From NCBI GenBank assembly GCA_037042915.1, contig CM073193.1, positions 3,286,001 through 3,350,000 of the forward strand: a stretch of DNA of 64,000 bases, read 5' to 3'. A program made the position numbers and the translations under genes. The notes under the pieces are model-generated. The model was not told the origin of the DNA, searched no databases, and saw only the letters and a list, made by a program, of their open reading frames with translations. The DNA is from Auricularia sp. M13. Taxonomy: Eukaryota > Basidiomycota > Agaricomycetes > Auriculariales > Auriculariaceae. Of the stretch, positions 1,836 to 18,400 are shown piece after piece (the first letter of the stretch is position 1; each line of letters begins with the position of its first letter).

Positions 1836-3711
1836 CTACAGCGTAAGTTCAAGTTGAATGGAGTCCAGGACCGATGCGTACCAATCGAGATCCCAGGAAG
1901 TGGTTGCTCGTCCTCGGAATCCTGGAACTGATTCCTGTAAGGCCACACAAATGACCACGGCTCGCGAGTCCAGGCATCGTAGTAGGGGAAGGATACTGCA
2001 CGCGGATGATGCGGGCGTGCTCCATCTTCCTGTACGTCGAAGGAGCGGTCTGCGATACCAGGCGTATAGACATAATCAACCGGGGACAATGGGCTAGCAG
2101 GGTACGATTCTTGTGGGCCCCATGAAGTTGCCGTGGCAGGAGTCACAGGTCGGCTCCAGGTCGCGCGTTGTCCGATATCCAAAGAAGCTGCATAATAATC
2201 GCTGTATTCGCTGACGGGGGAGCCAGCATACGATGCAGGACCCCAGGACGTTGCAGTGGTCGGTGTGCATGGCGCGTCATCCAGCATCCTGTACGCGATG
2301 TCTGGAGACGGCAAACGGACCGACAAAGCAAATGGCGAGTCAGGGTAGTCGTAAGGCCAACCGGTTGTTGCTGTGGACGGAGTAGGCGGTACCGATCCCT
2401 GCAGGCGGTATTCAAGGTGCACCGACGGCAGGGGCTCAGGCCAGTGTGGGGAGTCCAGGCAACTTTGGGGACCGGCAGAAGAGATGGACCAATCGAAGTC
2501 ATCCAGGTTTAATTCGACTTCTTCCTCGTCGTCCCCAGCGGCAACAGCAACGACCGGACCGTCAGCAGGGGTCTCCGGTGCAGAGTTGGGCATATGAGCA
2601 GGGTCCAAACTGATCTGACCGGTTTTATTGCTGGGCGGATTTGGGCTGGTACCACTGGCCATGCGCCACTGCATCACGCGGTTATCGGCCTCGACACGCT
2701 TAGCAGTCACTGGCTCCTCGTCCTGAGGAATCGGTGACAAACGCTTGGTCATTGGCGCCTCCTGCTCGCTCGGTGGACTCCGGGAATCGAGCAGAACGAT
2801 GTCGCGTGAGGCAGCATTAGCGCCTGAAGACTCGCCGTTGCGTTGCGTAAGGCTGAGTTTGCTTGGGCGGTTGACGACCGTTGCACGCGAAGAGCTGGCC
2901 AATTGCAAGGGGAACAGCCCGTTCTCCGAGCGCGCATCGTCGTCTCCAAATAGCGTCGAGCGGCTCTCCCGCTTCCGGTGATAAGACGCAGACGGCGCGA
3001 CCGACGGCGGGATGGGGACTTCGCCCCTCTGGACCCCTATCCAGGAATGATACCACAGTGCTTTGCGAACGTCAATGTCAAACTCGATGCGTCCGCTGAT
3101 GGGTAAGCCCATCCCAGGGGGCGGCGCGCTGTCATCGAAGAAATGGCCCCAGAGGAAGGGCCACGTCTCGTCTGTAACTCGCGGTGTCATGGTGAGACCG
3201 GAGTCCGTCATCTGCAAGTAAATGCAGACGCCGGAAACGGATGGCAGGCCAAACTCGCGGGCGATGGCAGTGAGCTGGCCGTACATCTGCAGTGACAGCC
3301 GGTAAGCTGAAACACGCAGCCGCAGTGCAGAGCATTACTCACTGTCGGAAACAGCGGCATTAGTATCCCATTGCTAAAACGACCGGAAGGGGAGGTGGAC
3401 AGTGTGTTGCCCACGACAGCCGGCTCCTTGGTCAGAGACGGCGGCGGAAGTACAACGACGAGCCAGCGAGAGGCGCGCGGTCCAACTCGCTGCGTCTCCC
3501 GCAGAGCAGGTGCGCCGGTGCTGTGGTAGGAGACTGTCGAGGAAACCCGTCGGAATCGCGACGCTGCCGTCTCTGGTAAGGGCTCGTGAACGTGGTCTTG
3601 GACGCTTGGGATCATGTGGTCGAGTTCTGTGTCTGGCGGGCTAGCGGGAAGCTGAACGGGGCGAGGAATGTCCTCTGGCATGGCCTTGTGAAAGTAGGTC
3701 AAACGCGACAT
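1..3711 (-). CDS. Tandem 'YP....IYP' repeat protein, one repeat per exon (3' end outside window)
   Basis: I do not recognise a function. Exon 1 (3711-3343) starts MSRLTYFHK. A 56-nt intron leads to a 1.4-kb exon 2 (3286-1882) with a conserved-looking segment (AIAREFGLPSVSGVCIYL, then IEFDIDVRKALWYHSW) and a low-complexity middle. Twelve small exons follow on the minus strand: 1835-1800, 1749-1687, 1641-1567, 1505-1410, 1358-1284, 1232-1113, 1065-949, 901-770, 725-417, 368-264, 212-108 and 58-(1). Every complete one is a multiple of 3 long (36-309 nt) and is bounded by phase-1 introns of 44-61 nt. From 1749 down the split codon is normally the second Tyr of a YPxxxxIYP motif (T|AY); the first junctions of the series give V and Y or S. 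Examples are TVYPNFDIYP, TTYPHFELYP and AVYPHSLSFIYP. There is no stop before base 1, so the gene continues leftwards. The exon chain is well supported; the exact start is less certain. Confidence 0.75.
2060..2425 (-). repeat. Three internal protein repeats (TPxTATSWGP..SP) in exon 2
   Basis: Within exon 2 of the YP-repeat gene the translation holds three related segments, with cores TPSTATTGWPYDYPDSP, TPTTATSWGPASYAGSP and TPATATSWGPQESYPASP. Each is followed by an aromatic-rich tail. They are spaced about 40 residues apart and look like an older internal duplication, separate from the exon-based repeats further along the gene. Confidence 0.6.
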
Positions 3712-7000: not shown

Positions 7001-7826
7001 TTTGGACCTCGCCGATAAACTCCCAGACTTCTGCGCAGCCCTCGACGTCCTGGAAGCTGAGCGCGTAATCGGTGCCATCGGTCTCTGTCCATACAATCAG
7101 GGTGTCTGCGGAAAGTCCGAGTTAGACGCGGGGGCAGTCACGCGAGCCGGTGGCGGACGGATACGCGCCTTGCTGTCGCTGGTAGACGTCGAGGCCACGG
7201 ATGGTGTGCTGGAGCAGGATCTTGTCAGGGTCGGCCTCGCTCTTTGCGATGATTTTGGCCTCCTGGGCGTTGTCGTCGAAGTCGCCGGTGCAGAAGGCGG
7301 TGCCACGGTCCTCCCACTGCATGTCCACAAGCTCGTAGACCTTCATGCGCGTGTTGAGGCACATGCCGTCCTCAGCGGCGGGCTGTGGCGGACACACCTT
7401 GACGCGTCTTAGGTCGGCAACGTAGTCTATTTCCTCCGTGTCGCTCGACGCCTCCGACCCGCCCGGGTCGCTCGACATCGCCTGGTCGCTGTCCAGCGTG
7501 TCCTCGGACGCTGCGCGCCCGTCTGGCGAGGGCGCGCGCTCGTCGTCGGCCGGGCTGTCAGCGGGCGCGGGGCTGATGTCATTGGCCTCTGGCCCGGGCG
7601 AGCCTGGCTGGGCGCGCGGCTTGGACGGCGACGGCTGCGGGGAGCCGGCAGAGTGCGCGGCGCCGTTCAGCTGTCTGGCGGCGCGCGACATGAAGCCTGG
7701 CGAGAGACGCGGCGGGGAGTCCGCAGGCCGTGCGGGTGGTTTGCGCTGGCTGGTGGGAGAGCTCGTGGGCGACGGGCGGGGCGGCGACGGCGTCGATGGG
7801 GCATGGGCAGTCGCTACGCTGCTCAT
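4031..7826 (-). CDS. PSY2: Protein phosphatase 4 regulatory subunit 3 (SMEK/Psy2)
   Basis: Scaffold that directs PP4 to substrates such as DNA-damage checkpoint proteins. The protein opens with about 120 residues of Ser/Pro/Ala-rich sequence, then the SMEK EVH1-like domain (VYELVDMQWEDRGTAFCTG, KILLQHTI, then DTLIVWTETDG and ALSFQDVEGCAEVWEFI across an intron). Next come the family's Armadillo/HEAT core (VLEYDPEFPTH region, QFLKDVVLSRALDDTTFNVL, SCIIFNQIDIISHIQQDESF, MNIEPPPLPEE) and a Ser/acidic tail with Lys/Arg clusters (KRKRMRG, KRRRSDEEEDEDD) that look like nuclear localisation signals. There are several introns; the one at 7106-7168 has a GC donor. A transposable element begins 78 bp upstream of the start codon. 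Identification is secure; some internal splice sites were not resolved. Confidence 0.92.
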
Positions 7827-7895: not shown

Positions 7896-7904
7896 ACGTT
7901 CAGG
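7896..7904. repeat. Target-site duplication, left copy (ACGTTCAGG)
   Basis: A 9-bp direct repeat immediately outside the left terminal inverted repeat. It is identical to bases 15175-15183 outside the right end, as expected for insertion through a 9-bp staggered cut. Confidence 0.9.
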
Positions 7905-8161
7905 TAGTCTCGTAACCAGACGTTCGTTGCGTCGGAGTTGGAAACTCCGTTCGGCAACGAACGTCTGGGAAGCACCGTCGCAGTTTAAATAGGTCAGAAA
8001 TCCCAGATAGCCGTGTGAAAAAAGACTTCGCCGAATCGAGCTCGCGCACCTCTCAAAAATTGTTCTCTCAGACCCGTAACTAAAAATTGATATTATCGCA
8101 TTTGGGGTCGATTGAATATATGAATGTTTTGACCTCCGGAAAATACTCAGTAATTAGTAGC
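7905..8161. repeat. Left terminal inverted repeat
   Basis: Pairs with 14920-15174 in inverse orientation. Long exact blocks include GGTTTAAATAGGTCAGAAATC (one mismatch), the block ending CCGTGTGAAAAAAGACTT, TTCTCTCAGACCCGTAA, and the block from GACCTCCGGAAAATACTC to AATTAGTAGC at the inner edge. A stretch at about 8030-8060 has diverged between the two ends. Confidence 0.88.
7916..7968. other. Sub-terminal hairpin, left end of element
   Basis: Perfect 15-bp stem CCAGACGTTCGTTGC (7916-7930) with its reverse complement at 7954-7968. A nested 7-bp stem CGGAGTT/AACTCCG (7933-7939/7943-7949) closes a 3-nt loop. It begins right after the shared terminal CTCGTAA. Confidence 0.85.
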
Positions 8162-8469
8162 GGCCTTCTGAAATTGTCGGAAGCGTTGCAACATGTACAG
8201 GCATGTGCTAGGCTACCAATGCAATGTTTGGTGTAGGTACCAGTGGGGTGAATGGACTTGGGAGCCCGCTGTTGTGAGCGATGACCGTCATCTTTCTCCC
8301 CGCTCATCAATGCGGGCCTGTCGCGTCTCTTTCAACTCTTGTGATAGCTTCGACGACGGATCGAAGCAGAATGAATATAGGCTGTGCATTGGCGCTCACG
8401 AAGCCGCGGCTACAGTACAAGTTGAACACTCGGCTGAGCTGCCGAGACTGTTTGCACCTTGTCCCCGTT

Positions 8470-11400
8470 TTACATGTCCTCGAGCTCGCTATCGTAGTCT
8501 GCCCAGCTCGCGTCTGGGTCGAGCATGATGTCTTCCTCGTCGAAAACCAACCGCTCGGCTTCATCAGCCTCAACGGCGGTGTCACTGGGTTCAGCGGCGG
8601 CTTGACTGTCGCCATCACTGCTTGAGCTATCCGACCCGATTTCCTCGTCACTCCCGCCCTCCTGTCGTACAGCATCCGCGCTTTCGGTCTGCAGCTGTAA
8701 ATCCTTGTCTGCTGCTGTTTCCTGGACCGTCAAGTCTACGTCCATCGTCTGTTCGTGGAGATGCAGCCTACTCGCGGCCGCAGCAGCGGATTCCTGTACG
8801 GCCGTGTTTTGTGCAGCGTTGGCGGTTCCCTGTGCTCCAGGGTTGTAGTCTGCCAAGGGCTTGACTCTACACCGCGCCTGAAGAGTCTTGAATTCAGCGC
8901 TGTAGTCGGTAAGCGTTGCATTCGCGCCATCCATCATCTGCTGCAGCCCGAGCCCGAAGAGGTCGGGAACCGGGTTTATCTCGCTTTCGTCGACGCTCTT
9001 TCGCTCCGCGCCCTTCTCGTAAACCTTGTGCTCTTTCAGGCTGGTCATGAGGACTTGGATATCGCGTGTCAAGTCCGGCGAGGTGTGTTTGCTGCCCTGG
9101 TACGACCCGAGCGACGCATGCACCTTGTCCGCGACCTTCCGAAGAACGTCTATGCACGGTGAAATCATTGCTAGCCACTCTGGTGATGAATTACTGCCAT
9201 GCGCGGCGTACACGCGCTGTCGCGGCTTCAGTGCGGGCTGGCAGATGCGTATGCGCGACATACCTTTATCCAGAAGTTCAGATGCTCTTGCATATGGTCT
9301 AACGCAACCCATCCGTCCTTTGTGCCCGTAGGATTAACGAGCCAGTTCTTCAGCACAAGGTCTCTGGATACAGGTGAGGAACCATTGCCAATAGACCGAA
9401 AGCGACTCACCGCAACTTCTCAGGCCAAACGCGCAAGATGTAGTGGAGCAGGTACATCATCTCCCGTGCGTATTTCGGATGCCCGCCTGCTTTGAACGTC
9501 ATGGCTAACCACTTGAGCGCCAGGACGATATGGTTTGAACGACCAGATTTGATAGCCCTCAGGAAGGTGCGCAGCCCAACTGCGTCGCGCAGAAAGAGTA
9601 CGCCGTTTTCGAAGACCTTGTCGCCCCTGCCACCTTTCCTCCTCTCGTTTCGAAGCTCGGCGACACTGACGATAGACGCGTAGGTTCTCCAGATTGACTG
9701 CACATGCAGATGCAGATCATTGAAGGTTACGATGGAGCGCGCACAGGCCGCGAGATCGTCGTGCCCCGTGACTTTGAGCAAGCAATGCAGGATTCGGGCG
9801 TTCATCGATACCGAGAGCAGGTCGCGGCAGACGTGGTATGCTGGCAACGAGGACAGGACAATCGGCTTGCGTCGCAGGACCGTGTTGTGGAACCACAGTG
9901 AGCCTGGATCCCTTGTTCCCGTATCTGGCTTACCCCAGTGTGCCGTGAGCAGGCAGGTCACGGCCGACATACCGGTGTGGAATAGCGCTGGGATGGGCTT
10001 GGCCCACCGCCAGCTTTCGACGTCGCTTTCGTGACCAGCGCGCGCGCCAATGATAGACCGTTGTCGCGCCACAGTGAGCTGATCGCCGAAGAACAAACGG
10101 ACCAATTTGGGCTTCCCCGGTGCGTCGAGCTCAACTCCCAGCTGCGCATGAATCGTGTTGACCGCGTCAACGTTTCCAGCGATAGAGGCTTCGTCGATGT
10201 CCATGGTCTGCAGCGGAAAGATTTCGCTTTGGTGCACGGTGAGTTGGAAGTCGTCGACTGGGTCTGCCGCGTCGATATTCTTCTTGAATCGCGCGAAATG
10301 ACCAGCGCCGTAGTCCAAGATTGCGTGCTCCATAGTGCTAACACTCAGGTCTGTCCATAGGCATGCCTCGGCAGGCGAGAAGATGAGATCTTCTTCGACG
10401 AGTGGACCAGCGGCAAGAAAGGCTGCCTCGGCGGTTTCGAGGCTCAACGCATCTTCAACGTCTTTGCTGTCGGGATGGAGACCAGCGGCAGTCGCGGCTG
10501 TCATGTTCTGAATGGCATCTGACATCTATTGAGCGCAGGTTGGGCTGGCGGGTCGCACGTACCTGTTCGTGCCATTGTTTGCTCAGCAACGTTGCCTGCC
10601 ATATTGACGTTATCGTAGGTCGTCTTATACTTTCCCGTCTTCGCCAGCTCCTGAGCACCCTGCATACATGATGCAGACAGGGATGGTAGGATACCATTGC
10701 CTCGCAAGCGGTCCACCGGCTGCCGTTCACTCAGAGTTGTCGCGTTCTGGACGGCAGGGCCTTCGGCAGACAATGCGGCTTCTTGGGTTACCGACTCCGT
10801 GACGCCCTCTATTCGCAGGTTCGACCGTCGGTGGTCCTCTTTCTGAACAAGAGTTGTGTAGCTGCAGGTATAACCCGCATGCGAGAGAACACTGATCGTC
10901 TGACGCTGCGCGCCAGTCGCATACAGATAGAGGCCGTGATAATTTGCGACCAGGCTGTTCATCCGACTATGTTGGCGAAGGAGATTCGACAAAGTGTATG
11001 TGATTATCTTAAAGGCACTGTCAGATTCTGACAGAAATATGACAGACATGCCCACCGTTTGACAACGTCCCTGGGATGACTCGGCCTGCGCCTTCAGCTG
11101 GCGTTGTGAGGTCGCAAACATCGTGCAGACCTCAACCATTACCGGTGCAGCTGTTTTGAACTGCGGGTACAGGTTCGTCGCATCGAACGCTAGCACCTTC
11201 TCCTTGCTCATTTCCTGAGCAGTTGCCCGCAGCCATCCAGCCTGAGTAATCTTGGCAGCTTCGCGCGCGGCCAGACCAGCGACGTATGTCGTCATCCACT
11301 GCTCCACGCGAGCTACGACCCTAGGTGCTGAACCATTCCGCCCGCGCGTTGTCCAGTACGTCAAGAGCGCCTCGATGAAGCCCGCGCCCTTGAAGAGGTC

Positions 11401-12108
11401 CGCCCAGATGCGCTCCCGAAGGCTATCGGTGCGTTGTGCGGGGTCCAGAATGAATAGTAGGAGCTCGCGCAGACTGAGCCCTCTGTTGTCGAGGTCGGCG
11501 AGTAGGTGTAGCGAGGCAGCACGAAGGTTCGTCTCTCGTTCTTGCTCCTTGAGCTGCCGTTCCCTCTCGGCTGACGTCTTTCGAATTTCCTGCAGCTCCT
11601 GACGGTTGAGTTGCACTGTCTGGCTACGCGCCTTCTGTCCGCGCTGCCGATGCCGTGCATTCAAGATCTCCTTTGGTCCAACGTGAGGAGAAGAGTAAGG
11701 GTCGAGACCATCCATGTCCAGGACCTCCTCAAGATGTTTGGACGACGATGGTACGGGGTCTCCACCGCGTTGAGCAGGCGTAAGCGGTACGTTCCTACGT
11801 GGTGTCATTGGCACCTCGTCACTGTTCAATCGCATGCTGAAGAACTCGTTCAGCTCATCGTCATCCATTTCGGCCAGGACAGCATCAGCATGTTGCCTGT
11901 TCTTCGATGGAGACGAGAGCTCGGGTGGTGCGCTGCTGGGTCGTGGCGTGTCAGACCAGCCGTCCAATATATCTTCGTCTTCGTCTTCTTCATCGCCTAC
12001 ATTCGTATTCAGGACCAATCCGAGTGCTGGCACAGACATGTTGCTTGTATGACCGGAGGACGACTTGCTGATTGTAAGGAGAGGCAACGGATCTAAAATA
12101 GGGCTCAT
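8470..12108 (-). CDS. DUF6589 family protein, candidate transposase of the element
   Basis: A large protein of over 1,000 residues. It has an acidic/Ser-Pro-rich N-terminus (EDEDEDILDGW, ELSSPSKNRQ) and a coiled, charged region (RQELQEIRKTSAERERQLKE). The DUF6589 core reads in order: FDATNLYPQF, LVANYHGLYLYATGAQRQ, GYTCSY, YDNVNMAGNVAEQ, FFGDQLTVAR, HYILRVWPEKLR, LVLKNWLVNPTG and ALDHMQEHLNFWIK. The tail is acidic. An intron near 10518-10559 joins ART to DAIQNMTAATAA; another after EKLR joins DLVLKNW. The conserved Asp of YDNVN (codon 10612-10614), Asp of GDQL (10082-10084) and Glu of QEHLN (9285-9287) are candidates for a DDE-type catalytic triad; this is inference. No frame break was found. 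Family assignment is confident, function is not. Confidence 0.85.
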
Positions 12109-12130
12109 CGTCTTTTAACCGACCTCCTCG
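12109..12130. promoter_or_regulatory. 22-bp gap between divergent start codons of the element's two genes
   Basis: The start codon of the DUF6589 gene (minus, 12108) and that of the helicase gene (plus, 12131) are only 22 bp apart. The 5' UTRs, and probably the promoters, must therefore overlap the opposite coding sequence, unless the DUF6589 protein starts at the internal Met of MSVPALGLVL about 70 bp further in. Confidence 0.55.
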
Positions 12131-14661
12131 ATGCCTCCTCGCAGACAGTCACAGCGGCAGAATGCTGCTTCCGCTAGGCAGGGGTTCTCAACGCACAGCT
12201 CTCGAGGACCGATCTTTGTATCGGTAACTGCTGAAGACAAGGAAAAGATTGTTGAGCTCATGAAGCAACATTTTGGCTGGTCGCACGAGCCTCGTCCAAT
12301 GCAGGTCAAGGCTGCTCTCGCGCAGGTCGACGGCGAGGACGTGATTGTGCATGCTCCAACGGGCCATGGCAAAACGGGTATAGTGGCAGGCCCTCATGCT
12401 TTCCCGCAGAACAAGGGTCGCGTTACAATTTTCGTCTCGCCGCTCATCGCGCTGCAAGAAGAAATGGTCACTACGTTCAAAGCCGACTATAACCTCAATG
12501 CAGTTGCGGTAAATTCAACAAGAACAAAAAGCCTGAAAGCCACAATGCAGGTGAGAAACATAGTGTATTCTGTGCCATTTGATTCTGACAGTGACTACAA
12601 CAGGATATATGCGCCGGGAAATATGCTGTAGTCCTCATCTCTCCGGAGATGCTGCAGTCCAGGCGGTTTGTCGACAATGTTCTGCGCGATGCAGAATTTT
12701 TTGTTCGGTTCCTCTCACTCGTGGTCGATGAGGCTCATACCGTCTCACATTGGGGAGCACACTTCCGCAAGAAGTATGGCACCCTTGGTGTTGTACGGGC
12801 ATTTCTACGCGCTGGGACATCCGTGGTTGCCATGTCTGCTTCCCTCACCCCTCGAGTGCGCAGGGACATACTCAAAAAGCTTCAATTCAGCTCGAACTTC
12901 ATCAATATCGACGAGGGCAACAACCGTCCGAATGTGGCTATCGTAGTCCGTGCCTGTCATCGCCAGCTCTCCTCGTTTGCAGACCTCGATTTTGTCATAC
13001 CGGCGAACATCCAGGCAGCGCAAGACATACCGTCAACATTCATTTACTGCGATAAGAAGGAGGAGGGTGATGCGATCGTTGACCACCTCCGCGAGCGGCT
13101 GCCGGAAAGCATGCGCGAGCTGGGTCTCGTCCGCCCCTTTAATGCCTCCCTTTCACATCACTATCGCAGAAATGCACTCCAGCACTTCCGCGCTGGGAAC
13201 ATTCGTGTCATGGTCTGTACTGATGCGGCGGGCATGGTGAGCTTGGTATGACATCTTTGTTAAATGTTGATGGTCTTGCAGGGCTGCAATATACCCAACA
13301 TCGAGATCGTCGTGCAGTGGAGGCTTCCCGAAAAGCTTTCAATGTTTGTTCAGCGAGCGGGACGGGCTGCTCGGCGCCCCGGAACCTCGGGACTCGCTGT
13401 TCTTCTTGTCGAGCCCACAGCATACACCGAATTCATCGACAAAAGCTTTGGCCACGATGAAGACTCGCCTGCTGCTCCACAGGCACCACCGGCCCACGGT
13501 GCTGCTGCTCCCAAGAAGAAGACGGCCAAGAAAAAGAGCAAGGCCGGCCGTGCGCCACGAGGCTACGCCAAAGCCCACGGCCGCAATCGTGGCTGCAGCT
13601 GCGACGAAGAGACGAACGCCCGCCATGCGGATCTATGTCTGAAAGTCGACGAGGCCGCAGAGGACGAAGGCTTACTCTGTCTCGTCCAAACGGGAGATTG
13701 TCGTCGACGCGTCATTGCCGATGCCTTTGGCAACATGGACAGGTGTATGTTCACAGGTTATCAATTATCCAGCACTGACAGGCATTCTTCAGCGGCTCTT
13801 GGACCTTGCTGTGATTTGTGCAACCCCACACTCTTTGCGCGCACTTTGCCAGGTCGAGGGCCAAAACAGAAGCCGCGGTTGACCAAGAAAGACAAGAACA
13901 ACACGGCCTCAGACGTTATTGATGCGCTTTACGACTGGCGCCTGTCTGTCTGGAAGAAGGACCTTGCGTATACCGGGTTCTCCGATGTTGCGCTGCTATC
14001 TGACGAACGTATTCTGACATTGGCGCGTGTACCCGAATTCAACTCGGAACGCGTGCTCAAGGTCGAGATGGGCGAGTGGCGATGGTGGACGCGATACGGA
14101 CGCTCACTCTGGCGTGCGTTGGCCGGTGTCTACAACGAGCGGGCGGCACAAGACCCTGCACCGACGACATCGACAAAGCGCAAGCGCGGCGCGCCGTCAA
14201 ACAACACTCAGCCGGCTCTGCACCCATCGAGCACTCACACACCATCCGCTGCCGCTTCCTCGTCTGCCAGTGCTGCGCAGTCAACGAGCAGCGTGTCTGG
14301 TGCGCCAGCAAAGCGGCCTCGGATGACCGCCCCACCTCCAGCGGCAGCAGCGCCGCCGCCGCCACACCTTATGCACCCTCCGCCTGGTGTCATGCATATG
14401 CCGGAGCACGTACCGCTTACGCCAGGTGCTACAGTGCCGCGGATTCTTCGCAATCTTGCACCTGTGCCAACGCCGTCGGGGCCAACAAATGATCCATCTC
14501 GTGTTGTTCACGGGTCCGACGGCAGGTATTACTTCGCGGCCGTCGACCGGCTATGGTACAGGATGCCGCAGAGCTTCACTCCCCAGCCAGCACGAGGTGG
14601 AAGAGGTGCAGGGAGAGCCCCAGGACGTGGCCGGGGTGGGCAGGGAGCCGGTCCACCCTAG
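12131..14661 (+). CDS. RecQ-type ATP-dependent DNA helicase carried by the element
   Basis: 3'-5' helicase family. Motif I APTGHGKT, motif Ia VSPLIALQEE, motif II VVDEAHTVSHWG, motif III AMSASLTP, motif V AGMGCNIPNIEIVVQW and motif VI QRAGRAARRPG are all present. They are followed by a RecQ-like zinc-binding region (LLCLVQTGDCRRR ... CCDLC). The C-terminus is Pro/Ser/Ala-rich and ends in an RG-rich segment (ARGGRGAGRAPGRGRGG). Exons are 12131-12550, 12604-13236 and 13282-14661; an optional 39-nt in-frame intron lies at 13743-13781. No HRDC domain was seen. It differs from a cellular RecQ by its location inside the TIRs and by its partner gene. It probably unwinds DNA during transposition or repair of the element. 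Confidence 0.88.
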
Positions 14662-14919
14662 ATTAGTTGTAGAACTTGCAGACTCCAAGTAACATCTGAA
14701 ACGTGCTGTACTAGATGCCTTAAAGCGCTTTATTGCTTATTTATGAGCTGGAATGCATTAAATATGCTGGAAATGCCGAGCCTCGGTGATGTGGTGCAGC
14801 AAATGAGCCCGGAAACCATGTCAAGCAGTTGCTACACACTCTGAGGTCTTCATTTTCATATCAGTATGTCAAGAAGGTGTCCTGAGTCGATACATATTAT
14901 TTTGAGAGGTTCGAATGCT

Positions 14920-15174
14920 GCTACTAATTACTGAGTATTTTCCGGAGGTCAAAATATTCATATGTCCAATCGCTTCCAAAAGCAATAATATCGATTTTTC
15001 ATTACGGGTCTGAGAGAACAGTTTTTGTGTGGTGGGCAAAGTCGGTGCGGCTAAGTCTTTTTTCACACGGCTATCTGGGATTTCTGACCTATTTAAACCG
15101 CGACGGTGCGTCCCAGCCGCTACATGACGAAGACATTTGTCGGAGTTTGAATGTAGCGGCTGGTTACGAGCCTA
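14920..15174. repeat. Right terminal inverted repeat
   Basis: Inverted partner of 7905-8161. The inner edge is at CTACTAATTACTGAG and the outer edge at GGTTACGAGCCTA. It has the same order of conserved and diverged blocks as the left copy. Confidence 0.88.
15113..15163. other. Sub-terminal hairpin, right end of element
   Basis: Perfect 13-bp stem CCAGCCGCTACAT (15113-15125) with its reverse complement at 15151-15163. It occupies the same place as the left hairpin and shares the outer CCAG/CTGG. Apart from that the stem sequence is different, although flanking TIR sequence is conserved. Confidence 0.85.
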
Positions 15175-15183
15175 ACGTTCAGG
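15175..15183. repeat. Target-site duplication, right copy (ACGTTCAGG)
   Basis: Identical 9-bp partner of 7896-7904, directly abutting the right terminus (..GGTTACGAGCCTA). Removing one copy and the element would restore a PSY2 upstream region continuous with 15184 onward. Confidence 0.9.
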
Positions 15184-15403: not shown

Positions 15404-18400
15404 TCAGGCACGCAGCCGGTCCGCAATTGCCCCCAGCAGCTCCGCCAGTCTCTCTGCCTCGGCGTTTGCCAGCGTCGTGTTCTTCTCAATCGTGATCGCC
15501 TCCGTCAGCGCAGGCAGCGTCGTCGCGCCGTAACCCAGCCATTTCCCGGGGGCGACGCCGAGGTGCTTGTACCATTCCTGCCAACACGTCAGTCGGTCTG
15601 CGCGCTTCACACCATGCAGTACACGCACCCGGTCTTTGATTCCTTCCTTTGAAATGAACCCGCGCTCGAACGTCGACAGCTTCTTGTTCACCTTCCTCAC
15701 GCGTCTCACCGCCCGGATGAACTTGATAGGGTTTGGGTGCCTGCGCTTCGGTGCGTGCCGCTGCGGCCATCCCGCCGGAGGCCGTCCGTCCACCAAGTCA
15801 ACATGCTCGCCTGTGTACTCCTTCTCCTGCGCCTTCAGCCAGTCCAGTTCCTCCGCATTTATATCTTCGTCTACGGACTGCGCAAAGTCGTACCGCGAGC
15901 GCACAGGAAGACCCAAATAATAGCGCATCGACGCGGCCGCCCGGCGAGCCTTGCAGCGCAGCTTGCGCAAGAACTTGGGCTTTCTCTTGCGAAGGAGCTT
16001 CTTGAGCGCATCTTCAGCATCTTTCTTTTCGGTGTCGAACTTGATGCTCGAAGTTACGAGACTGGCTATGGCATCGCGGAGCGGCGTCAGGTTGGGCTTG
16101 TCGTCCAAGTTCTTGCTCAATTCCTCCACGCTAGAGACCAACTTGTTAGCTAGCACACTTTCATATCCATTCGCAGGGGCGTACACGTCAAGATAGGACT
16201 CGAGCTGAAGCGCGTATTGTGTCGTGTTAATCGGAAGCACCACCGAGTCCGAGATACGGAGTGCAACGACACCGAGGAACTTGGCCACCGCAACCTGTGC
16301 ATAGTCAGAACATGCTCAACAGCATACGAGTGGAAGCAACATACGTGACGGTGGAATCCAGGGTCAGCATAAAGCTCCTGCCAGCGCTCGCTATCGTACA
16401 CCTGTTCCCCGGCATTAGACATCTCCCTGAGTTCTGCCTGACGACGGCGAATACTCACGGAATGATAATGATACACGGCATCTCCCTTACCGCCCCCAAA
16501 GCCGCCGTCGGTACTGGCAATGCCGATGTGTTGCAGGAAGACAGTGTAATCACTACCGCTGCCTAACGGATTCACTCCAAGACTGGCAGGGGCCAGTTTA
16601 GCCTGTGCGTCCTCTTCTGTGCGTGCAGCGCTCCACAATGTGGCCGATATATTGGCCGCGAAGGGGCCGACATCTTGCTTGGTATCCCATAGAGTGCGTT
16701 TGCTGTCAGTAGGATGTGGGATCTGGTCGGCGACGGAGCGTAGCAAATGGGAAAGCGACGGCGAGCCGCTGATGTGGAAGTTGGCGCCGCTCACGGAGCT
16801 GTCTGTTGTCCTCGTCAGCAAAAAAAAAATTACTGGGGAACGGGAGGACAGACCCAAGTTAAGGTACGCAACGACATGCTGCGAAAGGAAATGCCCGAAG
16901 TCCTCGCCGTACTCAGTCGATCCAATCAAACCATATTCCTCGGCGTCCCAGCTGGCGATGAGGATGGTCCGAAGCGGCCTCCAGCCACTGTGCCAGAGGT
17001 GCGCGAAGCCACGGATGGTTTCGTGCAACGAAACGGAGCCGCTGGTGGGGTCTGTGGCACCCATGACCCAGGCATCTCTGTGGTTTCCAATTACAACGAT
17101 CTCGTCCTTAATGTGCCCGGGAATGACGGCCATGGTGTTCCAAATAGGCGTGACCTTCTCGTCCACGTTATTGTGCAGCCGGACGACCGTCTTGCTGATG
17201 CCATTTCCGTCAAGCTCTTGGAAGAGACGCTTCGCGTTGGCCCAAGAGATGGGCAGCGATGGAATGGACGGTGCGTTCAGTGCTTCATCGCGCGTCACGT
17301 TCGCGTAGGCTGGCCGGCCGGGAGTTGTGGGGTCGCCGGGGTACATGGAGATGAACTGCACGCTGCCGCGCTGTACCGCGGTAGGGTTGCGCGCAGGACC
17401 TACTCGTCTGAGAAACGAGTTTATGCCAATGAGATCAAAGACTCACCGTTGGGATATACTTCAAAGCCCTCATCCTCTGTCACGCCGCCGTCATCGCGTG
17501 GGTCGCTGTATATGAGAACGCCTACGGCACCGAGCTCCTGCGCACGCTTGATCTTGAGTCCGCGGAAGTTGGCACTGCACATGAATCGCCGTGAGGAGCG
17601 CGTAAGAAATTATATAAACGATCTTACCCGTAGCGCGCCAGCACAATCGCGCCTTTGAAATCTACGCCCTTCGCCTCGAGCTCATCGTAATCACTCTTGA
17701 GGCCGTAATTGGCGTAAATGAGGCGACCCTTGACATCTCCACCCTTGGACAGGCCGTGGAAGGTTGGCACGGCATAAACATACTTGCCAGCCTCAGGGTC
17801 GGTGTCATCTGCAACTTCCTCGAGCGGTGCGCTCCAGGTGACATTGCCGTCTGAATCGAGGATTTCGAGATGGCGGTCCAACGGTGTGTTCATCACGGGA
17901 TAATAGGTATCGATCCAAGCTCTGGGCTGAGACGTCCATGGCAGCGTGAGTGTTGCCAGGCGGGACGCGGGAGAGCCGGCTTGGAAGATGGGGACACTCT
18001 TGCGCGGCGGGAGACGGAACTCCTGCTGGAAGAGTGTGAGGACATCCTGTGCGGTGACGAGATCCTGCGGCGAGCCGGCAATATGGGGTTTGGTGGCCAG
18101 AAGACGCGAGGTGGCAATGGCGCTCTCGTTGTTGGGAACGGTGCTGCGAGTGAGTCAGCTGCGAAGGATCCAGGCTGCTGGCCGGGTATTACACACAGAA
18201 ACTCGCGGATTGCCCGCCTGCCTTTGAGCGGCGGCTGGTGCTCGTGAGGGTGGCCGTGACGGCCGAGGGCTGCGTATCCCCAGGCTGCATGCACATCGTG
18301 GTCCACAGCGTTCCGGTGATGGTGGGCGCAGTTGCGGGAGTGGTGCAGCCAAAGCAGAACGGTGCCGAGAATGGCGAGGAGAATGTACTTGCGCTGCCTG

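Follow-up and report, generated by a model that had tools for sequence, protein, structure and literature searches.

The stretch of Auricularia sp. M13 DNA analysed here (the window; 64,000 nucleotides) raises the question of what kind of element places a DUF6589 gene beside a gene for a RecQ-family helicase, between inverted repeats that are themselves flanked by identical 9-bp sequences. The results described below make it probable that this is an autonomous DNA transposon, AcademH being its most likely type, in which the DUF6589 protein serves as a DDE transposase and RecQ as an accessory factor.

The element in the window is a real and precisely bounded mobile element (Table 1). Its termini are unlike yet matching, with TAGT... 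on the left and TAGG... on the right, and belong to inverted repeats of 262 bp with 80.5% identity (214 of 266 alignment columns). Each repeat consists of a 15-bp outer end, about 45 bp that match poorly and a strongly matching inner part of about 200 bp (219 nt, 86%); a perfect 15-bp inverted repeat also lies within the left terminus (7916-7930/7954-7968). The element contains two genes on opposite strands, DUF6589 on the minus and RecQ on the plus strand. An earlier, sequence-only reading of this locus had described the termini, inverted repeats of about 255 bp, the 9-bp direct repeats and the two genes, and all of these were borne out, with the repeats aligning over the length given above. 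The exact end motif is present at only two places in the window, both of them element termini. Three further matches carry 2 mismatches, and the five matches obtained at this tolerance are not above chance expectation.

Is the element one of a family? The genome searched comprises 52.1 Mb in 14 contigs, and all copy counts are lower bounds. Each element end gave at least 41 matches, so copies with the same termini clearly exist elsewhere. The pattern TAGNCTCGTNNCCAG was found at 101 places, as against 7 for the reversed control. When ends were paired at the 100 listed of these 101 places, the matches listed yielded 38 inward-facing pairs within 10 kb, five of them long (6.3-9.6 kb) and 33 short (61-1,958 bp, with recurring size classes of 604-606, 674, 739, 749 and ~910 bp). 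They also yielded 24 single ends, some of which are single since the partner end has a mismatch. Identical 9-bp flanks were present in 33 of the 37 copies read on both sides but in none of 1,332 mismatched flank pairs. The four copies without exact 9-bp flanks are C8:987189, C2:867999, C2:4464823 and C6:1363029 (contig and position); the flank set leaves out seven of the 38 pairs as well as one-ended loci, for example C2:725009, C5:1974588 and C10:1897067. Taken together, the two comparisons, of motif places and of flanks, argue that neither the ends nor the duplications arose by chance. The 33 duplications have no fixed sequence and a G+C content of 58%. Exact duplications also surround tiny copies of 58-105 bp (C1:7338713, C7:429021, C8:788392 and C12:1118108), which suggests that a few tens of bp per end suffice for movement, if these copies moved in that form. 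Five copies of ~910 bp share 93-98% identity with each other along their whole extent, so mobility appears to have been fairly recent.

Besides the window, DUF6589 and RecQ occur together in three two-ended elements, all of which have an exact 9-bp duplication of their own. At C1:4944745, analogy with the window and the C4 copies predicted one end ~3 kb past RecQ and the other ~1.2 kb past DUF6589. Ends were found at the predicted sites, each 2 mismatches from the window motif, with GACGCGGCC on both flanks. At C2:975215, the expected 9-bp copy plus end motif (up to 2 mismatches allowed) matched the genome once, exactly, 6.3 kb away (control 0), and the intervening stretch contains DUF6589 and RecQ arranged tail to tail. 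Among the ~1.5-kb flanks of the other convergent DUF6589 loci, a good end motif was seen only at C2:975215; the best matches in the remaining convergent-locus flanks were one with 3 mismatches (locus L027) and others with 4. When the convergent loci were scanned for 12-bp inverted repeats bounded by a repeat of 7, 8 or 9 bp, two 8-bp matches and no 9-bp case came up. The locus at C2:725009 has its RecQ-side end, and no partner end was found up to C2:735000. Finally, the near-identical copies C2:934171 and C8:2903263 gave no boundary, as the C8 copy seems to be truncated inside the gene.

The association of the two genes extends well beyond these elements. A genome search with DUF6589 gave 36 exon matches, grouped into 21 loci, several of which contain stop codons, so that not all are intact. 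A RecQ-like helicase exon lies within 10 kb at 18 of the 21 loci (gaps between domain matches, 1.6-4.2 kb), and the genes are on opposite strands in all 18 pairs, 4 divergent and 14 convergent. Two genome searches with RecQ exons of these elements returned 20 places, 18 of them at DUF6589 loci; the DUF6589 loci lacking a RecQ match in those searches are C4:402997, C3:2421723 and C5:4016915. The window's first RecQ exon had 6 matches, 4 at DUF6589 loci, and two weak matches (C7:1520895 and C5:153986; E 1.7e-4 and 6.1e-4) were taken as other helicases. The sequence-only reading had regarded the DUF6589 gene as part of a complete mobile element rather than a cellular gene; it had raised the possibility of other DUF6589 genes in similar elements, had named the recovery of other copies with their own 9-bp duplications as a check, and would have counted a lack of copies with the same termini against itself. 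The RecQ-paired loci, the four loci (window included) with two ends and a duplication, the 33 exactly duplicated copies and the matches to each end all agree with it.

How old is the pairing? We built a tree from 18 of the 21 genomic DUF6589 domains (three short ones omitted) and 28 homologues. The four divergent loci fall on one side of a branch (99/96), inside a nine-row set (98/98) whose other five members are proteins of Exidia and Auricularia. Convergent loci make up several deeper lineages, some on long branches of unsure placement. Because the protein searches started from the window protein, the sampled homologues are mostly of the window type. The tree suggests an old origin for the DUF6589-RecQ pairing and at least one switch of gene order.

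The paired ends revealed a further regularity. Each of the 38 pairs among the matches listed joins an end with T as its fourth base to an end with another base there (34 G, 2 C, 2 A), whereas ends combined at random would do so in about half of cases. The independent cases number fewer than 38, since many pairs are related as copies; by size and end type we estimate about a dozen independent families. Elements of the window, C1:4939944 and C2:975215 types all follow the rule. Comparison of 11 short copies with the window element showed that their T ends match its T end, and that their opposite ends match its G end in the outer part. In the window and the C4 copies it is the DUF6589 side that has the T end, but in C1:4939944 it is the RecQ side, so the position of this end does not simply follow the genes. 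These patterns suggest that the transposase requires one end of each type.

Could DUF6589 be that transposase? The main exon matches Pfam PF20231 with an E value of 1.3e-85. When 831 aa were searched, the best homologues were from Exidia (56% identity over 100%) and Auricularia (54% over 99%); the remainder, from many Agaricomycetes, are mostly 33-44% identical, and the most distant among the matches listed is 24% identical over 47%. Since homologues align along the searched 831 aa, the gene model appears sound. Most named homologues carry no annotation beyond hypothetical or uncharacterised protein; one bears a helicase name. Scanning 34 homologues gave 33 matches to DUF6589, none to another family and no helicase domain. 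No Pfam transposase model was among the matches of six window frames up to E 1, and in the literature searched no paper named DUF6589, the sole match to PF20231 being an unrelated optics paper. Against solved structures, the DUF6589 sequence gave one chance match (E 1.1) and, in a second search, no matches. A pattern search of viral contigs gave 4 matches and no relatives. A protein search with an alignment, aimed at animal relatives because AcademH is reported from animals, returned 32 proteins, the named ones all fungal, but this says little, as scoring was limited to the 8,000 candidates with the most shared words.

AlphaFold models of two DUF6589 relatives found as their best structural alignments the DDE transposases Hermes and P element, at 8-12% identity. 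DUF6589 is predicted to have an RNase H fold: the models contain an RNase H-like core that places D, D and E on the first strand, a later strand and a C-terminal helix, and these three residues are conserved among the homologues (Table 1). Weighing against this assignment, Foldseek's own scores for the models were weak; its lists also contained membrane proteins and further helical folds, which were set aside for their low probability. We conclude that DUF6589 is very probably the transposase that moves the element, its catalytic role being deduced from the predicted fold and the conserved D-D-E. The two genes might instead be cellular ones captured between the ends of another transposon, as the uninformative annotation of most named homologues would allow. 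However, RecQ has been retained at 18 of 21 DUF6589 loci across deep divergence and in two gene orders, ends and duplications of their own are present at four such loci, and the predicted fold and D-D-E are transposase-like; we therefore find this explanation scarcely credible.

The RecQ protein has as its best family NCBIfam recQ_fam (E 1.1e-48, 166.3 bits, the model's own cut-off of 219.8 not being reached) and as its best solved relatives bacterial RecQ and human WRN. Its gene model may include an additional small intron near 13743. In the model that we favour, the element is an autonomous DNA transposon in which DUF6589, as an RNase H-fold DDE transposase, would bring together a single T end (TAGT...) and a single non-T end (TAGG, TAGC or TAGA...) and cut at the TAG termini. 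The ends would then be joined to target DNA with a 9-bp stagger, to be filled in as the duplication. A cut-and-paste route is probable, with a copying route as the alternative. RecQ would act as an accessory factor, probably opening or clearing DNA at ends or gaps in excision, integration or repair, and the short non-autonomous copies would be mobilised by the same machinery.

If correct, this assignment has consequences beyond the locus. DUF6589, which Pfam lists as 'of unknown function', occupies 21 loci in this genome and has relatives across many Agaricomycetes. Recognising the family as the source of the transposase in elements that carry a helicase would correct the hypothetical and uncharacterised annotations of those relatives. 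The end motif together with the 9 bp provides a means of finding autonomous and non-autonomous copies. Moreover, the strict T/non-T rule and the constant RecQ partner raise the testable question of why a DDE transposon has its own RecQ.

Several copies are of interest in their own right. At C8:987189-989035 (L016), a short copy is inserted at the extreme end of an older copy. Its duplication, CGAGACTAG, is the older copy's last 8 bp plus the next base; the older copy, whose own flanks agree at 6 of 9 bases, was later interrupted by another copy. A short copy at C11:2592562-2593356 (L117, L118), with duplication TCTGGGAAC, lies 70 bp inside a second T end and is probably nested, apparently within an older copy's terminal repeat. 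C11:1924472-1930847 is a 6.4-kb two-ended element with an exact 9-bp duplication and no DUF6589 or RecQ match in the genome searches, and it encloses a 605-bp pair of the other end type (1926520-1927124). This and the other 604-606-bp pairs (C5:3297152, C6:1858834, C11:810788 and C11:1926520) have ends GTTCCCAG/GTCCCCAG, which match those of the gene-bearing element C1:4939944 and not those of the window element, so that a separate set of short copies may belong to each autonomous type. Possibly another small transposon lies near the DUF6589 locus C4:402997 (L022, locus positions 3049-3644), where 596 bp with the inverted ends TAGTGTAGCCG are flanked by the 8-bp repeat GCCGATCG. A 1,441-bp non-autonomous element at the A mating-type locus of Agaricus bisporus could be a relative; according to an extract of PMC10051438 it has a 9-bp duplication, and its site is empty in strain H39. 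In the window, the insertion lies ~70-80 bp upstream of position 7826, the likely start codon of an EVH1_PP4R3-domain gene (7122-7826, minus strand), and the other flank holds a gene with a transferrin receptor-like dimerisation domain (15404-16315, minus strand).

Table 1. Features of the DUF6589-RecQ element, in window positions.
Feature	Position	Strand	Remarks
Whole element	7905..15174		7,270 bp; matching ends, flanking 9-bp repeats, other genome copies
Left target-site duplication ACGTTCAGG	7896..7904	+	direct reading
Right target-site duplication ACGTTCAGG	15175..15183	+	direct reading
Left terminal inverted repeat, 'T end', TAGTCTCGTAACCAG	7905..8166	+	DUF6589 side
Right terminal inverted repeat, 'G end', TAGGCTCGTAACCAG (reverse complement)	14913..15174	-	RecQ side
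DUF6589 gene, proposed DDE transposase, 1,166 aa	8470..12108	-	modelled from splice signals and open frames
DUF6589 exons (4, modelled)	12108-10563, 10518-9411, 9363-9264, 9216-8470	-	no stop across reading
Proposed catalytic Asp-499 codon, TYDN motif	10612..10614	-	D in 45/45 homologues (alignment A1)
Proposed catalytic Asp-661 codon, GDQLT motif	10082..10084	-	D in 44/45 homologues, one row gapped
Proposed catalytic Glu-868 codon, KYAxE motif	9461..9463	-	E in 45/45 homologues
RecQ-family helicase gene, 810 aa	12131..14661	+	exons 12131-12550, 12604-13236, 13282-14661, modelled

To which superfamily does the element belong? Mutator elements have 9-bp duplications and long inverted repeats, of which those described here are reminiscent; hAT and P elements have 8-bp duplications, and Kolobok elements duplicate TTAA, as against 9 bp of no fixed sequence in the window family. 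Membership of a familiar superfamily (Mutator, hAT, P or KolobokH) nevertheless seems very doubtful, given the lack of Pfam transposase models among the window-frame matches and of any family other than DUF6589 among the homologues scanned. hAT (Hermes) and P elements share with DUF6589 the best structural alignments of the predicted models and a long helical stretch before the catalytic Glu, but differ in duplication length and in the low identity of those alignments. They differ also in the C/DxxH signature that an extract of PMC9587614 places between the second D and last E in hAT/P/MuDR/Kolobok/Dada, which occurs in at most 2 of 45 homologues at any column. Fungal KolobokH, described in the same extract, likewise combines a RecQ helicase with a DDE transposase, but its RecQ lies downstream of the transposase domain (PMC9587614), whereas here the genes are separate, on opposite strands in 18 of 18 pairs, and DUF6589 lacks C/DxxH. 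The C(2)C and H(3-4)H motifs that an extract of PMC12730594 gives between the second D and E of EnSpm/Plavaka/Transib (CMCT) were scarce (at any column, C..C in at most 1, H(3)H in at most 2 and H(4)H in at most 12 of 45 homologues). The KDZ elements (Kyakuja, Dileera, Zisupton) are also fungal DNA transposons with accessory genes, but in the elements described in that extract these are TET/JBP genes, not RecQ, and the duplications are 7 or 8 bp (PMC12730594); six window frames gave no KDZ Pfam match.

The element is most likely an AcademH transposon, an assignment that draws on three of four features and on published descriptions. The original AcademH paper is reportedly that of Kojima 2020 (Mob DNA 11:15). 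In the extracts of PMC10045372 and PMC10799480, AcademH is the helicase-encoding Academ lineage of animals and fungi. The first gives duplications of 9 or 10 bp for AcademH and 3 or 4 bp for AcademX, tied to the encoded helicase or nuclease, and the second a low copy number in Basidiomycota, Ascomycota and Mucoromycota. The exact 9-bp duplications, the helicase accompanying the transposase and the basidiomycete host (the closest DUF6589 relatives being from Exidia, of the Agaricomycetes and Auriculariales, and Auricularia) all correspond, so the sequence-only reading was probably wrong to see a new class with no named superfamily. The link to AcademH is nonetheless by description, and DUF6589, a Pfam family of unknown function, was not found named in the literature searched. 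These elements might thus form their own superfamily unrelated to Academ, having independently arrived at 9-bp duplications and acquired a helicase, but we think this unlikely, since the same combination in two unrelated classes of basidiomycete transposon would be a strong coincidence. We give similarly limited weight to the broader form of this idea, a separate unnamed eukaryotic DDE superfamily with a strict T/non-T rule, in which RecQ would be a part of the machine conserved through deep lineages and a switch of gene order. Three points go beyond AcademH as described in those extracts, namely the proposed transposase role of DUF6589, the rule of unlike ends and the genome-wide pairing, some of which the original paper may contain. 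What they have in common with AcademH are the helicase, the 9- (or 10-) bp duplications and an occurrence in Basidiomycota and other fungi (PMC10045372, PMC10799480).
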